Positions 16,180-21,626 of a DNA stretch of 34,951 nucleotides are shown piece after piece (the stretch's first letter is position 1; each line of letters begins with the position of its first letter). The DNA comes from an uncultured Pseudomonadota bacterium. Lineage in GTDB: Bacteria; Myxococcota_A; UBA9160; UBA4427. A model generated the notes under the pieces. That model worked only from the letters and a program-made list of their open reading frames with translations. It was not told the DNA's origin and ran no database searches. Location of the stretch: NCBI GenBank assembly GCA_913054385.1, contig CAJXIC010000002.1, forward strand, positions 1-34,951, read 5' to 3'. Made by a program: the position numbers and the translations under genes.

Positions 16180-17604
16180 ATGGATCCGAGACAAGCCGTC
16201 AAGCCGGACCCCCGACGCGGGCTGCCCTCCGTGGATCGTCTGATCCGCGAAGCGAGCGGCGCGGCTTCGGAGCTGCCCAACTGGGCCGTGCGCGCCGCTG
16301 CGCGCGAGGCGGTCGAAGCGCTCCGGGGGGAGTTGGAAGCCCAAGGAGCGGCGGCGGACACCCGCGGGGCGAATGCCGCTGATGGGGACGTCCTGGGGCG
16401 CGCCGTGGCGGACTGCTTGGCACGGGCCGAGCGCCTGGCGAAGCCAAGCCCCCGCCGCGTGCTCAACGCTACGGGCGTCGTACTCCACACCAACCTGGGG
16501 CGGGCTCCGCTTTCTCGGGCGGCGGCCGACGCGGTGCAGGCTGCCGCGCTCTCGTATTCGGACCTCGAGATGGACCTCGAGCAGGGGGGCCGAGGCGATC
16601 GCCTCGCCGGTGTCGCCCAGAAGCTAAGACTGCTCTCGGGGGCCGAATCGGCCCACGTCTCCAACAACAACGCGGCCGCGCTCCTGTTGGTCCTCGACAC
16701 CCTCGCCCGCGACCGCGAGGTGATCGTCTCGCGTGGAGAGTTGGTCGAAATCGGGGGCTCGTTCCGGGTTCCCGAGATCATGCAGCGCGCCGGGGTGCGC
16801 CTGGTCGAGGTGGGGACCACGAACCGTACCCACGCCGAGGACTACGAGAACGCAATCGGTCCCCAGACGGCCCTGCTGCTGAAGGTGCATCGCAGCAATT
16901 TCGAACAGAAGGGGTTCGTCGCCGAAGTGGGGCTTCCGGCACTGGCTGCGATCGGCGCGCGCGCTGGGCTGCCGGTGGTCGATGATCTCGGCAGCGGGAC
17001 CCTCGTCGACCTGTCGGACCGGGGAATTCCCATCGAGGCTTTCGCCCCCTCGCGGCTCACGGCCGGCGCCGACGTGGTGTGTTTTTCCGGGGATAAACTT
17101 CTGGGCGGTCCCCAGGCCGGGATCCTGCTGGGGAAGCAGGAGATCGTGGAGCGTTGCCGACGCAACCCCCTGGCGCGAGCTCTGCGTCTAGACAAGCTCG
17201 GGATCGCAGCACTCGATGCCACCCTCGAGTGCCTGCTCGATGGGCGCGGCGAAGAGGAGATCCCGGTACTGCGGCGCTTGCTCGAGCCGGTGGCTTCGCT
17301 CGAAGCGCGCGCCCGCAAGCTCGCCGGACGGCTCGCGAAGAATCACCCCGCTCCGCTGCGCTTCGAGGTTGCGAAGGAGAGCGCCCCCGTGGGTGGCGGA
17401 TCGCTGCCGGGCTTCGCACTCGAGACCTGGGTGGTCGAAGTGTCTGGCGCCGGCTCCGCCGAACGCCTCGCGGCCCGGTTGCGCCGGGCGGAAACGCCGG
17501 TCCTCGCGCGGCTTCGAGACGGTCTGCTGAAGATCGACCTGCGCACTCTCGAAGACGACGAGTGCGCCGAAGTCGAGCGCATGCTCGACGCGGCGCTTCG
17601 CTGA
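16180..17604 (+). CDS. selA: L-seryl-tRNA(Sec) selenium transferase
   Basis: Converts Ser-tRNA(Sec) to Sec-tRNA(Sec) using selenophosphate; a PLP enzyme forming large rings. It has 474 residues, close to the usual 460. Seen: the N-terminal tRNA-binding helical part, RRVLNATGVVLHTNLGRAPL, SNNNAAALLLVL, SRGELVEIGGSFRVPEIM, VGTTNRTHAEDYENAI, DDLGSGTLVDL and the PLP lysine Lys306 in CFSGDKLLGGPQAG. The presence of selA implies the organism makes selenoproteins. selB usually follows selA but does not here, and no selD or tRNA-Sec is in the window, so they must be elsewhere. No clear ribosome site precedes the ATG at 16180. Confidence 0.95.
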   Translation: MDPRQAVKPDPRRGLPSVDRLIREASGAASELPNWAVRAAAREAVEALRGELEAQGAAADTRGANAADGDVLGRAVADCLARAERLAKPSPRRVLNATGVVLHTNLGRAPLSRAAADAVQAAALSYSDLEMDLEQGGRGDRLAGVAQKLRLLSGAESAHVSNNNAAALLLVLDTLARDREVIVSRGELVEIGGSFRVPEIMQRAGVRLVEVGTTNRTHAEDYENAIGPQTALLLKVHRSNFEQKGFVAEVGLPALAAIGARAGLPVVDDLGSGTLVDLSDRGIPIEAFAPSRLTAGADVVCFSGDKLLGGPQAGILLGKQEIVERCRRNPLARALRLDKLGIAALDATLECLLDGRGEEEIPVLRRLLEPVASLEARARKLAGRLAKNHPAPLRFEVAKESAPVGGGSLPGFALETWVVEVSGAGSAERLAARLRRAETPVLARLRDGLLKIDLRTLEDDECAEVERMLDAALR

Positions 17605-17644: not shown

Positions 17645-18241
17645 ATGCTGAATTCGAGTGTCCTGGTCCTGAATCGCTCCTTTCTCCCGGTCCACGTGAC
17701 TTCGCTGCGGCGCGCCTTCACGCTGGTTTACGTGGGCGGTGCGCGCGCCGTCGACAGCCGCTACCAGACGTTCGATTTCGAGGAGTGGACCAGCGGCGGC
17801 GCCCCGACGGATGCCGAGGCCGTGGGCTCGACCGCTGGGCCCGTGCCGGTACCCCGGGTCATCCTGTTGACTCATTTCGACGGCGTGCCGAAGCGTCGGG
17901 TGCGCTTCAGTCGCAGCAACGTGTTCGCCCGGGATCGCTTCACCTGCCAGTACTGCGGGGAGCAACGACCTCGCAGCGATCTGAACCTCGACCATGTCGT
18001 GCCCCGAACAATGGGGGGACGCACGACCTGGGAGAACGTCGTTTGCTGCTGTTTATCCTGCAATCGTCGCAAGGGCGGGCGCACCCCCGAGCAGGCGGGG
18101 TTTCGCCTGGGGCGCAAGCCGGCTCGTCCTCGCTGGAGTCCAGTGCTGAGCGTGGCGCCCGCGAAGGTTCGCTACCGCGAATGGCGCCCCTTTCTCTTCT
18201 CCAGCGACGCTTCGGCGGTCTCGCAGGGCGTCGCGGTCTGA
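17645..18241 (+). CDS. HNH endonuclease domain protein
   Basis: A 198-residue protein with an HNH nuclease core near residues 95-150: CQYCG, then NLDHVVPRTMGGRTTWENVV and CLSCNRRKGG, giving two zinc-binding CxxC pairs and the HNH catalytic residues. The N-terminus (VLVLNRSFLPVHVTSLRRAF) is typical of a widely conserved chromosomal HNH family found in many non-enteric bacteria, whose role is unknown. Nothing suggests a mobile intron or restriction system: no methylase or repeat flanks it. It starts 40 bases after selA, behind a small hairpin GCTGCC/GGCAGC (17606-17620). Confidence 0.85.
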   Translation: MLNSSVLVLNRSFLPVHVTSLRRAFTLVYVGGARAVDSRYQTFDFEEWTSGGAPTDAEAVGSTAGPVPVPRVILLTHFDGVPKRRVRFSRSNVFARDRFTCQYCGEQRPRSDLNLDHVVPRTMGGRTTWENVVCCCLSCNRRKGGRTPEQAGFRLGRKPARPRWSPVLSVAPAKVRYREWRPFLFSSDASAVSQGVAV

Positions 18242-18325: not shown

Positions 18326-19312
18326 GTGGGGGATGGATCCACGGAAGCGACGACTCGGGCGACGGAGATTTCGAGGGCGGCCACTGGTCGCGGGCCGCGA
18401 CTCGTCGCGGTCGGGAGTGGCAAGGGGGGCGTCGGTCGCAGTGTCGTCGCGGCCAACGTTGCCACGGCACTCGCCGACTCGGGCCAGCGCGTCATCGCTG
18501 TCGACACCGATCTCGGATCGGCGAACCTCCACACCCTCCTGGGGGTCGAGCATCCGCGCGAAGGCCTTTCGGATTTCGTCGCGCGCCGCGAAGAGGACCT
18601 TCGGAAGCTGGCGATCGAGACGCCGGTTGCGAACCTGCGGTTGGTGGCGGGTACCGGTGGTCATCTCGATGACGCCCAGCCCGACAACGCGCGCCGGGTT
18701 CGCCTGATCCGGGACCTGCGCCAGCTCGATGCGGATTGGGTGGTTCTCGATCTCGGTGCAGGGGTACACCCAGCGACCCTCGACTATTTCCTCGTCGCCG
18801 ACGACGCCCTGCTCATCCTCTCCCCGGAACCCACCTGCATCGAGAGTGCCTACGCGTTCCTACGGGCGGCGTTCTACCGGCGGCTTTGGCAGTCGATGGT
18901 CAGTCAGAATCTGCGCGATCTCGTCACCGATGCGATGGACCCGCGGAATGAGCGCGGGATCCAGAACCCCCTCGACCTGCTGCGCGAAGTGGAAGCGGCC
19001 GATCCGGCGGAGGGTGCTCGTTTCTTGCGCACGGTGGACGAGTTTCGGCCGAAGATCGTGATCAATGGTGCGCGCAGCGCGGACGATATCCGTCTCGGCT
19101 TCTCCGTCGTGACCGTGTGTCGGCGCTACTTTGGCGCCAACTTCAAATATCTCGGCTACATCAATTATGACGAGGCGGTGCGGCGCTCGGTGATTGCAAA
19201 GGTGCCCCTGGTGCACTTTGCCAAGGAAGCCGATGCGGCGAACTACCTCACGCGGATCGCCCGAAAAATCAGCGAGCCGCCTCCGGCGGTCTCGCTCGGG
19301 CGACACCGATGA
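18326..19312 (+). CDS. MinD/ParA-like (FlhG-like) ATPase with altered Walker A
   Basis: A 328-residue SIMIBI-class ATPase. Seen: deviant Walker A GSGKGGVGRS with signature Lys33, but Arg38 where the phosphate-binding lysine of KGGxGK(T/S) should be. The Walker A' is AVDTDLGSANLHTLLGVEHP, Walker B is WVVLDLGAG, then LSPEPTCIESAYAFLRAAFYRR, a mark of the FlhG/MinD-like group. The N-terminal 20 residues are Ser/Thr-rich and variable. Relatives position cell structures by ATP-driven dimerisation, sometimes on membranes; no clear C-terminal amphipathic targeting helix is seen. GTG at 18326 is chosen. The stop overlaps the next ATG (ATGA). Its partner is probably the J-like/HTH protein. Confidence 0.88.
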   Translation: MGDGSTEATTRATEISRAATGRGPRLVAVGSGKGGVGRSVVAANVATALADSGQRVIAVDTDLGSANLHTLLGVEHPREGLSDFVARREEDLRKLAIETPVANLRLVAGTGGHLDDAQPDNARRVRLIRDLRQLDADWVVLDLGAGVHPATLDYFLVADDALLILSPEPTCIESAYAFLRAAFYRRLWQSMVSQNLRDLVTDAMDPRNERGIQNPLDLLREVEAADPAEGARFLRTVDEFRPKIVINGARSADDIRLGFSVVTVCRRYFGANFKYLGYINYDEAVRRSVIAKVPLVHFAKEADAANYLTRIARKISEPPPAVSLGRHR

Positions 19313-19977
19313 AGGCCGTTTCCGAACTCGACCATTACGAACTTCTAGAGCTGCCCGTAGGCGCCGATCCCGCGCAGATCGAGAAGGCCTACAAGACGCT
19401 GCGTGCGACCTACGCCGCCGATTCGATGGCGGTCTACTCGATTCTCGAGCCCTCCGAAGCCGAGCAGATCCGCGAGCGGATCGAGGGCGCCTACCGGGTG
19501 CTCTCGGACGAGGAGGAGCGACACCGCTACGACGTGATTCGAGCGAAGGGCAGCAGCGGGATGGTCGGGGCGACGCATTCGGCGCTGGAGCAGGCGCTCC
19601 CGAAGAGCGTCGAGGTGCCCGAGGAGGCGCCGACTCCCGAAGGGGCAGCCGCTGGAGAGCCCAGCCCGGGAGCGGCGGCGTCGATTCTCGACGATGCCGA
19701 CGAATGCAACGGCCGAACGCTGCAGCAACTGCGTCTGCAGCGCGGTGTCGCCCTTGACCAACTGGCGGCAACGACGAAGATCAGCCCCAACACCCTTCGC
19801 TGCATCGAGGAGGATCGCTACGACGAACTCCCGGCATTGGTCTACGTGCGCGGCTTCGTGATCGCCTACGCCCGGGCCCTCGGCTTCGACTCCGAGAAGG
19901 TGGCGAACCGCTACATGGAGCATCTCGAGTCGTCGCGCGGGGTGCCGCGTCGGAGTCGGTTTCTCGGACGGGACTGA
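19309..19977 (+). CDS. Degenerate J-domain fused to a RodZ-like HTH
   Basis: A 222-residue protein. Residues about 7-80 follow the J-domain pattern (DHYELLELPVGADPAQIEKA, then YRVLSDEEERHRYD). The HPD tripeptide that stimulates Hsp70 is replaced by Ala36-Ala37-Asp38 (TYAADS). Residues about 85-135 are a Pro/Ala/Glu-rich linker. Residues about 138-207 are a helix-turn-helix of the RodZ/HTH_25 type (LQQLRLQRGVALDQLAATTK, then ALVYVRGFVIAYARALG). There is no membrane segment or periplasmic domain as in real RodZ. It is translationally coupled to the ATPase upstream and lies 3 bases before rluD. Probably an adaptor or regulator rather than an active co-chaperone (inference). Confidence 0.82.
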   Translation: MKAVSELDHYELLELPVGADPAQIEKAYKTLRATYAADSMAVYSILEPSEAEQIRERIEGAYRVLSDEEERHRYDVIRAKGSSGMVGATHSALEQALPKSVEVPEEAPTPEGAAAGEPSPGAAASILDDADECNGRTLQQLRLQRGVALDQLAATTKISPNTLRCIEEDRYDELPALVYVRGFVIAYARALGFDSEKVANRYMEHLESSRGVPRRSRFLGRD

Positions 19978-19980
19978 GCC

Positions 19981-20958
19981 TTGGCGGAGGGTCCCGACCT
20001 GGCGGAAAGTCCCGACGGCCCTCTCGATGAGGAACTGGTGCTGGTCTTCGAGGTTTCCGATGCCGAGGCCGGAGAGCGGGTCGACGTCGCGCTTGCGACC
20101 CTATCGGGGTTGCCGCGCTCTGCGGTGAAACGCTGGATCGCTGCGAAACGTGTTGAAGTCAACGAACAGCCCTGTCGTGCAAGCCGTCGGGTCTCGCTTG
20201 GCGATCGCGTTCGGGCGCGACCGCCGGAACCCGTACAACCGTCGCTTGCCCCAGAGGCGATTCCGCTCGTCGTGCTCTACGAGGATTCGGATCTGATCGT
20301 GATCGACAAGCCGGCGGGGCTCGTCGTGCATCCGGCGCCCGGACATCCGAGCGGCACACTCGTGAATGCGCTGCTCCACCACTGCAATGACCTGGCGGGA
20401 GTCGGTGGTGTGCTGCGCCCCGGAATCGTGCATCGTCTCGATCGCGGAACGTCTGGGGTCATGCTGGCGGCGAAGAACGACACCGCCCACGCGGCGCTTT
20501 CGAAACAGTTCCGCGACCATTCGATCGAGCGCGTCTACCGGGCCGTGGTGCGCGGAAGCCCCGGTGTCGAGGAGGGCGTCGTCGATCGCCCCATTGGTCG
20601 ACACCCGCGAGACCGGAAGCGCATGTCGGTGGCCGCGCGAAACGGACGGCGAGCGGTCACCCGCTATCGGCTCGTGGAACGCTTTGCGGCGTCCGACCGG
20701 AGTGAGCTCGAGATGCACCCCGAAACCGGCCGCACGCACCAGATCCGTGTGCACCTCGCCAGTCTGGGCCTGCCGATCGTGGGAGATCCAGTGTACGGGA
20801 AGGTGCGCAGGGCTGAAATCGATCGGCCAGCCCTGCACGCAGCCAAGCTGGGGTTCGTGCATCCACGGTCGGGCGAGATGCTGCGCTTCGAAGCCGGGTT
20901 GCCCGATGACATGGCGGCATTGATCGAGAAGCTGCGTGCGCGCGAAACGGCCTCGTGA
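19981..20958 (+). CDS. rluD: RluA/RluD family 23S rRNA pseudouridine synthase
   Basis: A 325-residue enzyme isomerising uridines in 23S rRNA. Residues about 25-85 hold an S4 RNA-binding domain (ERVDVALATLSGLPRSAVKR). The catalytic domain follows: VLYEDSDLIVIDKPAGLVVH, catalytic Asp154 in HRLDRGTSGVML, and RTHQIRVHLASLGLPIVGDP. RluD (helix 69 sites) is the closest name but RluC/RluA-type specificity cannot be excluded. TTG at 19981 is used, without a strong ribosome site; GTG at 20038 is an alternative. Stop overlaps the next gene as GTGA. Confidence 0.88.
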   Translation: MAEGPDLAESPDGPLDEELVLVFEVSDAEAGERVDVALATLSGLPRSAVKRWIAAKRVEVNEQPCRASRRVSLGDRVRARPPEPVQPSLAPEAIPLVVLYEDSDLIVIDKPAGLVVHPAPGHPSGTLVNALLHHCNDLAGVGGVLRPGIVHRLDRGTSGVMLAAKNDTAHAALSKQFRDHSIERVYRAVVRGSPGVEEGVVDRPIGRHPRDRKRMSVAARNGRRAVTRYRLVERFAASDRSELEMHPETGRTHQIRVHLASLGLPIVGDPVYGKVRRAEIDRPALHAAKLGFVHPRSGEMLRFEAGLPDDMAALIEKLRARETAS

Positions 20959-21626
20959 CCCGGGGTTTTCTGTGTCACCCGGTGCTCGGTGCACTGGGGG
21001 TCGAACACGGCTTCGGTACCCGTGCAGCCCGGTCCCCGTCGCGAGTGGCTCTGCCCCGCCAGGTTCACGGCACGGTGGTGGCGACGGTCGACTCGAAGGG
21101 CGAAGCGCATCCGGAAGAAGCCGACGCCATCGTCAGCGGGGCGGGAGAGGGGCCGGTGGGCATCGTGACCGCCGACTGCGTTCCGATTCTTGCGGCTAGC
21201 GCTGACGCCTCGAAGGTGGTGGCGATCCACGCGGGCTGGCGTGGTCTGGCGGCCGGTGTCGTCGAGGCGGGAATCGCCGCCCTCGGACCCGGCGATGCAC
21301 ACGAGATCCGCGCGGTGATTGGGCCCGCGATCGGAGTCTGTTGTTACGAAGTGGATGCGCCGGTTCTCGGCGCGCTGCGCCTGCGTTTCGACGGCGGCCT
21401 TGATCGCGCGACCTTCGAGAGTCGTCCCGGGCACGCACGACTCGATCTCTGCGAGTTGGTGCGAACCGAGTTGCACGCACTCGGACTCGCTGCCTCGAAG
21501 ATCGGTGCCATCGAGAACGCATGCACCCGCTGCGACGATCGTCGCTTCCATTCCTATCGCCGTGACGGTGCCGAATCCGGGCGGCTGCTCCACTTCATCG
21601 AGCCCCGTTCGAGCGATCAGGCTTGA
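20955..21626 (+). CDS. pgeF: PgeF/YfiH family (laccase-domain) protein
   Basis: A 223-residue member of the YfiH/Cu-oxidase_4 family. Members have been described as purine nucleoside phosphorylases/deaminases, as polyphenol oxidases, and as a peptidoglycan editing factor (PgeF). Metal-ligand residues are present in RQVHGTVV (His), VTADCVPIL (Cys) and [14 protein letters not shown] (His), with [11 protein letters not shown] and the C-terminal [19 protein letters not shown] start overlaps the rluD stop. The gene often sits next to rluD, and its stop overlaps the probable rho promoter. Confidence 0.92.

Follow-up and report, generated by a model that had tools for sequence, protein, structure and literature searches.

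The locus considered here raises the question of what a MinD-like ATPase, in which arginine has taken the place of the P-loop lysine, does together with the gene that overlaps its end, and whether this replacement means anything beyond a single sequence. It lies within the window, that is, the whole 34,951-nucleotide stretch of DNA that was analysed (Table 1). A sequence-only reading had described an ATPase motif GKGGVGRS with Arg38 and with Lys33, Walker A' and Walker B retained, which agrees with the sequence and with an alignment of 66 homologues. It had also described an ATGA overlap with a second gene encoding AAD at the HPD position and a RodZ-type HTH lacking a membrane segment, and this was confirmed by the open reading frames, Pfam and a structural model. 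The pair is probably, and we say so with some reserve, a dedicated switch-and-effector module consisting of a FleN/FlhG-like dimeric ATPase and a J-like/HTH effector (J-HTH), with fast ATP turnover having become dispensable in several lineages.

Table 1. Features of the ATPase/J-HTH locus and of the two genes downstream, in window coordinates.
Feature	Position	Strand	Basis
MinD/FlhG/FleN-like P-loop ATPase, 328 aa, GTG start	18326..19312	+	ORF, Pfam ParA/CbiA, predicted fold
Walker A GSGKGGVGRS; Lys33 kept, Arg38 for the P-loop Lys (CGC, 18437-18439), Gly31 to Ser	18413..18442	+	alignment
Switch I region VDTDLGSANLHTLLG, Asp62 intact	18500..18544	+	alignment
Walker B VVLDLGAG, Asp142 intact	18740..18763	+	alignment
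PEPTCIES loop (relatives: PEPTSVEN); S171C and N174S private to the window	18824..18847	+	alignment
Extra helical insert, residues about 190-240; conserved Asp205, Asn208, Gly211, Pro215	18893..19045	+	model and alignment
J-like/HTH_25 partner (J-HTH), 222 aa, ATG start	19309..19977	+	ORF, Pfam, model
ATGA stop/start overlap of the ATPase and J-HTH genes	19309..19312	+	sequence
J-like domain, residues 8-83	19330..19557	+	Pfam DnaJ 2.2e-9; J fold in model
HPD-motif position, here Ala36-Ala37-Asp38	19414..19422	+	alignment
RodZ-type HTH_25, residues 135-210	19711..19938	+	Pfam 3.7e-21; nearest structures
Tyr179 to Phe183, at the two MreB-contact aromatics of RodZ	19843..19857	+	alignment
RluD-type pseudouridine synthase, directly downstream of J-HTH	19981..20958	+	profile matches
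PgeF/YfiH-type protein	20955..21626	+	profile matches

The model of the ATPase (pLDDT 90.8) has as its nearest solved folds FleN-AMPPNP (E 1.8e-19), FleN-FleQ and FlhG. Asp62 of switch I and Asp142 of Walker B were found to be invariant across the 66 homologues. The insert at residues 190-240 is longer than the corresponding FleN loop, and its 53-residue spacing is constant in all 41 homologues in which it could be measured. At the P-loop, lysine occupies position 38 in all 80 nearest homologues, encoded by AAG (64) or AAA (16), and the arginine codon CGC is three base changes away from either. A sequencing or base-calling error was therefore rejected as the source of Arg38. Its use as a marker of a clade, a possibility raised in the sequence-only reading, was given up as well, with lysine present in all near relatives. 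The fallback of that reading, a recent mutation or a sequencing error, fits poorly with a three-base codon change, a co-accelerated partner and independent losses elsewhere. Besides K38R, the window is changed at G31S, S171C and N174S, each at a position invariant in the 66 homologues, while residue 65, which is Gly in 61 of them and Cys in five, is Ser. In the alignment, residue 174 falls on the Asp of the FleN sequence EPTSITD and presumably corresponds to FlhG D171 and MinD D152. The D171A form of Vibrio FlhG, said to match MinD D152A, showed a sevenfold increase in ATPase activity (PMC7226244).

An ordinary but slower ATPase, in which Arg38 stands in for lysine and the pair cycles like its relatives, is somewhat unlikely. 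Arg38 need not abolish activity, judging by Nostoc Get3d, which has a natural Arg at this Lys and is an active, slower ATPase with a kcat of 0.28 per min and a KM similar to that of the plant form with Lys (PMC10248533). Lys33, Asp62 and Asp142 are also intact, and NCBIfam contains a family of KGGVGR-motif AAA ATPases, NF047398, although the window protein scores 56.9 against it, which is below the curated cut-off of 90. Cycling of the ordinary kind is further opposed by the three additional changes at invariant positions and by the engineered K124R form of V. cholerae ParA2, which had no ATPase activity, bound less nucleotide, kept its DNA affinity and formed immobile foci (PMC10287910). The ATPase-dead FlhG D60A was still largely functional (PMC7226244). 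Set against the active arginine form of Get3d, the two mutants lead us to speak of slow or absent turnover and not of a dead enzyme.

The claim that the two genes form a two-protein module was borne out by their distribution. The ATPase was found in 40 of 41 genomes of the same order, with the J-HTH gene adjoining it in 40 of 40, the latter being cut by a contig end in one of these (G013). The exception, a genome of 2.2 Mb (G035), was without the ATPase and gave a weak J-HTH match. Within the phylum sample, both genes were present in 28 of 30 genomes of the same class and neither in the other two. Among the best 80 named loci a full-length J-HTH neighbour was recovered in 74, and three order-level loci without it have a contig end within 550 bases. 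The same 80 loci include some from Bdellovibrionota, Nitrospirota, Syntrophaceae and SAR324, with the two genes adjacent in the first three, and at least four phyla contain the module. Two observations had been named as counting against the sequence-only reading, namely lysine at position 38 in nearly all homologues and rare adjacency of the two genes; the first was indeed made and the second was not.

Of 49 order-level loci, 35 have the identical 4-base overlap. Other classes of Myxococcota carry the three domains in one protein of about 520 residues with the Pfam architecture ParA-DnaJ-HTH_25. A profile of the fused protein gave matches in 63 of 115 genomes of one Myxococcota class, nearly all of them covering both the ATPase and J-HTH within one frame. 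The two-gene module is thus real, old and conserved. Taken together, the fusion, the overlap and the loss of both genes at once make a physical complex of the ATPase and J-HTH likely. Literature searches found no description of the pair, for which the sequence-only reading had named no known function either, and the sole DnaJ-MinD lead was SflA.

Several variants of the arrangement were also observed. An ATPase relative fused to a PilZ domain (c-di-GMP-binding type) was found at L165:2586-3863, in a Myxococcota genome carrying an ATPase-J-HTH fusion as well. Two genomes from the window's order contain an additional ATPase copy, its P-loop Lys intact, that is fused straight to HTH_25 (L169:4645-6726 and L170:4591-5940). 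No DnaJ domain was detected in these two fusions, which would suggest that the J-like domain can be dispensed with. Two open frames, of 1,529 and 1,312 residues (L172:2149-6735 and L178:1303-5238), begin with an ATPase relative, and no further Pfam domain was found in them.

Among the order-level loci with a J-HTH gene, rluD follows the pair in 45 of 49 and pgeF in 43 of 49. The order rluD-pgeF after the pair also occurs in Bdellovibrionota, so that the linkage noted in the sequence-only reading extends to two phyla. It was not found in the Syntrophaceae locus examined, where a radical SAM gene and others stand instead, nor beside the fused genes examined, whose neighbours are unrelated. The linkage is therefore weak evidence for the envelope role at which the sequence-only reading had hinted. 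The rluD-pgeF cluster is old, yet it is not everywhere tied to the function of the module. Further upstream, the gene for SelA (selenocysteine synthase; 16180-17604) lies two genes before the ATPase and is located close to the pair in the majority of order-level loci. The gene immediately preceding the ATPase, in the same orientation, encodes an HNH_5 protein (17645-18241), conserved in many order-level loci, which gave weak matches to IscB/Cas9 and PtuB models and is probably an ordinary HNH protein. A defence system was considered for the locus and set aside, with only generic partial PADLOC matches, as was viral carriage, with no J-HTH relative in viral contigs.

The model of J-HTH (pLDDT 84) consists of a J fold and a RodZ/YmfM-like HTH separated by a linker of low confidence, with target-normalised TM-scores of up to 0.88 for the J-like domain. 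Of the features of a J-domain co-chaperone the fold is present and the HPD motif absent. This motif is kept in none of the 144 aligned J-like domains of the family, and its loss is an ancestral, family-wide trait. The description of the J-domain as degenerate is thus correct as to the missing HPD, but local decay in the window was rejected, with the motif absent in 144 of 144. The window shares with the family the adjacent ATPase, the HPD-less J-like domain and HTH_25. Hsp70 and MreB are both present in its genome. The family's J-like domain, judging from its sequences, cannot be a normal stimulator of Hsp70.

The nearest solved structures to HTH_25 are RodZ of the MreB complex (2WUS) and YmfM (3FYM). 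No membrane segment was found after the HTH in J-HTH, just a short tail following residue 210. A transcription regulator of the FleN-FleQ type, in which the HTH binds DNA and the ATPase acts as a controlling anti-activator, would agree with the closest folds, FleQ-bound FleN included, and with the place of HTH_25 among XRE-like HTHs. We regard it as unlikely, since no AAA+ partner adjoins the pair and the HTH is nearest to those of RodZ and YmfM, the RodZ HTH binding MreB and not DNA (PMC6946637).

Unlikely to a similar degree is a cytoskeletal adaptor, in which the HTH binds MreB through Tyr179 and Phe183 and the module tunes cell elongation or localises something along MreB. These residues align with T. 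maritima RodZ Tyr53 and Tyr57 (E. coli F60 and Y64), which contact MreB, and are invariant in 26 order members, in addition to the presence of MreB in the genome. However, J-HTH is without the transmembrane anchor of RodZ, and YmfM of S. aureus has aromatics at the same two positions, which may therefore be structural. S. aureus, a coccus, is not known to have MreB. The contact aromatics were not accepted as proof of MreB binding because YmfM keeps both, and MreB remains a candidate target only. The only other HTH_25 protein of the genome (L186:1417-1938, in contig C49) has 173 aa with an HTH and a membrane segment, and is perhaps a reduced RodZ.

The genome to which the window belongs, that of a Myxococcota-like deltaproteobacterium to judge by its named relatives, has been assembled incompletely (91% complete, 455 contigs, 2.54 Mb), relatives being mostly 4-7 Mb. 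Within their respective sets, its ATPase and J-HTH have diverged furthest (z of 3.14 and 3.12, respectively), whereas the RluD, PgeF and SelA that it encodes show average divergence (z of -0.07, -0.20 and -0.29). From this it follows that, in this one lineage, the pair has changed and not the whole genome. A mirror-tree test across the order gave 0.38 for the pair, a value matched or exceeded by several other gene pairs, and a partial correlation of 0.07. Order-wide co-evolution of the pair was thus weak and was set aside. Given the other genes the divergence of the two is uncorrelated, and the co-acceleration rests on one genome.

The P-loop lysine was also found to be missing elsewhere in the family, in 22 of 62 distinct sequences matching the fused profile (T in eight, A in seven, R in three, S in two and V in two) and in three more adjacent forms belonging to other classes than that of the window (Q, R and T). 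About half of those fused-profile sequences have another residue in place of the switch I Asp, and in 14 the signature Lys has become Arg. A tree built without the motif columns indicated that the P-loop Lys was lost or changed at least seven times, five of these being forced by well-supported branches, a count that is approximate given the quick method and several long branches. For close pairs, dN/dS of the ATPase part was 0.09-0.31 for lysine-less and 0.23-0.32 for Lys-bearing forms. The lysine-less domains elsewhere in the family are under purifying selection, and with dN/dS in the Lys-bearing range they are maintained without a normal P-loop. Arg38 is a private change, though probably a genuine one, and belongs with the loss of the ATP site to which the family as a whole is prone. 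Decay of the module under relaxed selection in a small genome, with Arg38 as one step, would suit the divergence of both genes and the 2.2 Mb relative without the pair, and is quite improbable given that both frames are intact, that 75 of 84 ATPase and 27 of 28 J-HTH positions conserved at 95% or more in the others are kept, that Walker B, Asp62 and Lys33 are retained, and that lysine-less versions elsewhere are under purifying selection.

In the switch-and-effector module that we favour, the ATPase, a SIMIBI protein of the MinD/FlhG/FleN fold, would form an ATP-type sandwich dimer, as suggested by this fold together with Lys33, Asp62 and Asp142. J-HTH, made from the same overlapping transcript, would bind the dimer, for which the overlap, co-loss and fusion argue. 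Its J-like fold would act as a docking surface alone and would not drive Hsp70, because HPD is missing throughout the family, and the RodZ-type HTH would carry the output to a target, more likely protein than DNA. In the ordinary members the complex would be turned on by the binding of ATP and off by its hydrolysis, or the reverse. For the window's lineage, Arg38 with G31S, S171C and N174S would result in slow or absent turnover, the complex being held and not cycled. Several fused lineages have gone further and lost the ATP site altogether, with the domain still under selection as shown by dN/dS.

MinD/ParA-type proteins are thought to act via ATP cycling. The repeated loss of the lysine under selection provides natural pairs of probably cycling and probably non-cycling forms with which the need for hydrolysis can be probed. 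We also suggest, tentatively and short of calling it probable, that this is a widespread and undescribed MinD-type switch with an HPD-less J/RodZ-HTH partner, in which the ATPase has repeatedly become a conserved non-cycling scaffold (pseudo-ATPase). The module is present in at least four phyla and fused in many Myxococcota, with no role described in the literature searched.

Among known systems, FleN and FlhG share with the window ATPase the fold, the deviant Walker A, Walker B, the EPT loop and a dedicated partner. The window protein differs in its Arg for the P-loop Lys and in the extra helices at residues 190-240, and the partner is J-HTH instead of FlhF or FleQ. The N-terminal activator motif DQAxxL(R) of FlhG/FleN was found in none of 67 rows, and no FlhF match over the cut-off was obtained in the window's genome (91% complete), the weak best hits presumably being SRP-type GTPases. 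MinD has the deviant Walker A family in common with the ATPase, which scored 67.5 bits against the minD equivalog (cut-off 212.9), and no MinC was found in the window's genome.

On the partner side, J-HTH resembles HPD-less J-like proteins of the Pam16/Tim16 type, which have a J fold without Hsp70 stimulation and are paired with another protein. Pam16 itself is not known to carry HPD. J-HTH differs from them in being bacterial, in the joining of its J-like part to a RodZ-type HTH and in its linkage to a MinD-type ATPase. Pairing of Pam18 with Pam16 is described in PMC3806816. With RodZ and YmfM, J-HTH shares the HTH_25 fold and sequence and both MreB-contact aromatics, a likeness not specific to RodZ; unlike RodZ, it has no transmembrane helix or periplasmic domain, and its HTH is C-terminal, behind the J-like domain. 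SflA of Vibrio contains a DnaJ domain and takes part in the process in which FlhG works, and no direct binding of it to FlhG is described (PMC7226244). Unlike J-HTH, it is a Vibrio-specific transmembrane protein with a TPR/Sel1-like periplasmic part and no HTH.

Conflict systems are known to include MinD/ParA-like domains for which inactivity is predicted (PMC7159879). The KGGVGR motif alone is likewise already known: within this superfamily another residue naturally takes the place of the P-loop Lys in Get3d of some cyanobacteria (PMC10248533) and in NF047398, which may be compared with BcsQ, which reads RGGVGTT (PMC9178275). Those are other families with other partners, whereas here the loss recurs many times within one family whose members adjoin or are fused with J-HTH.
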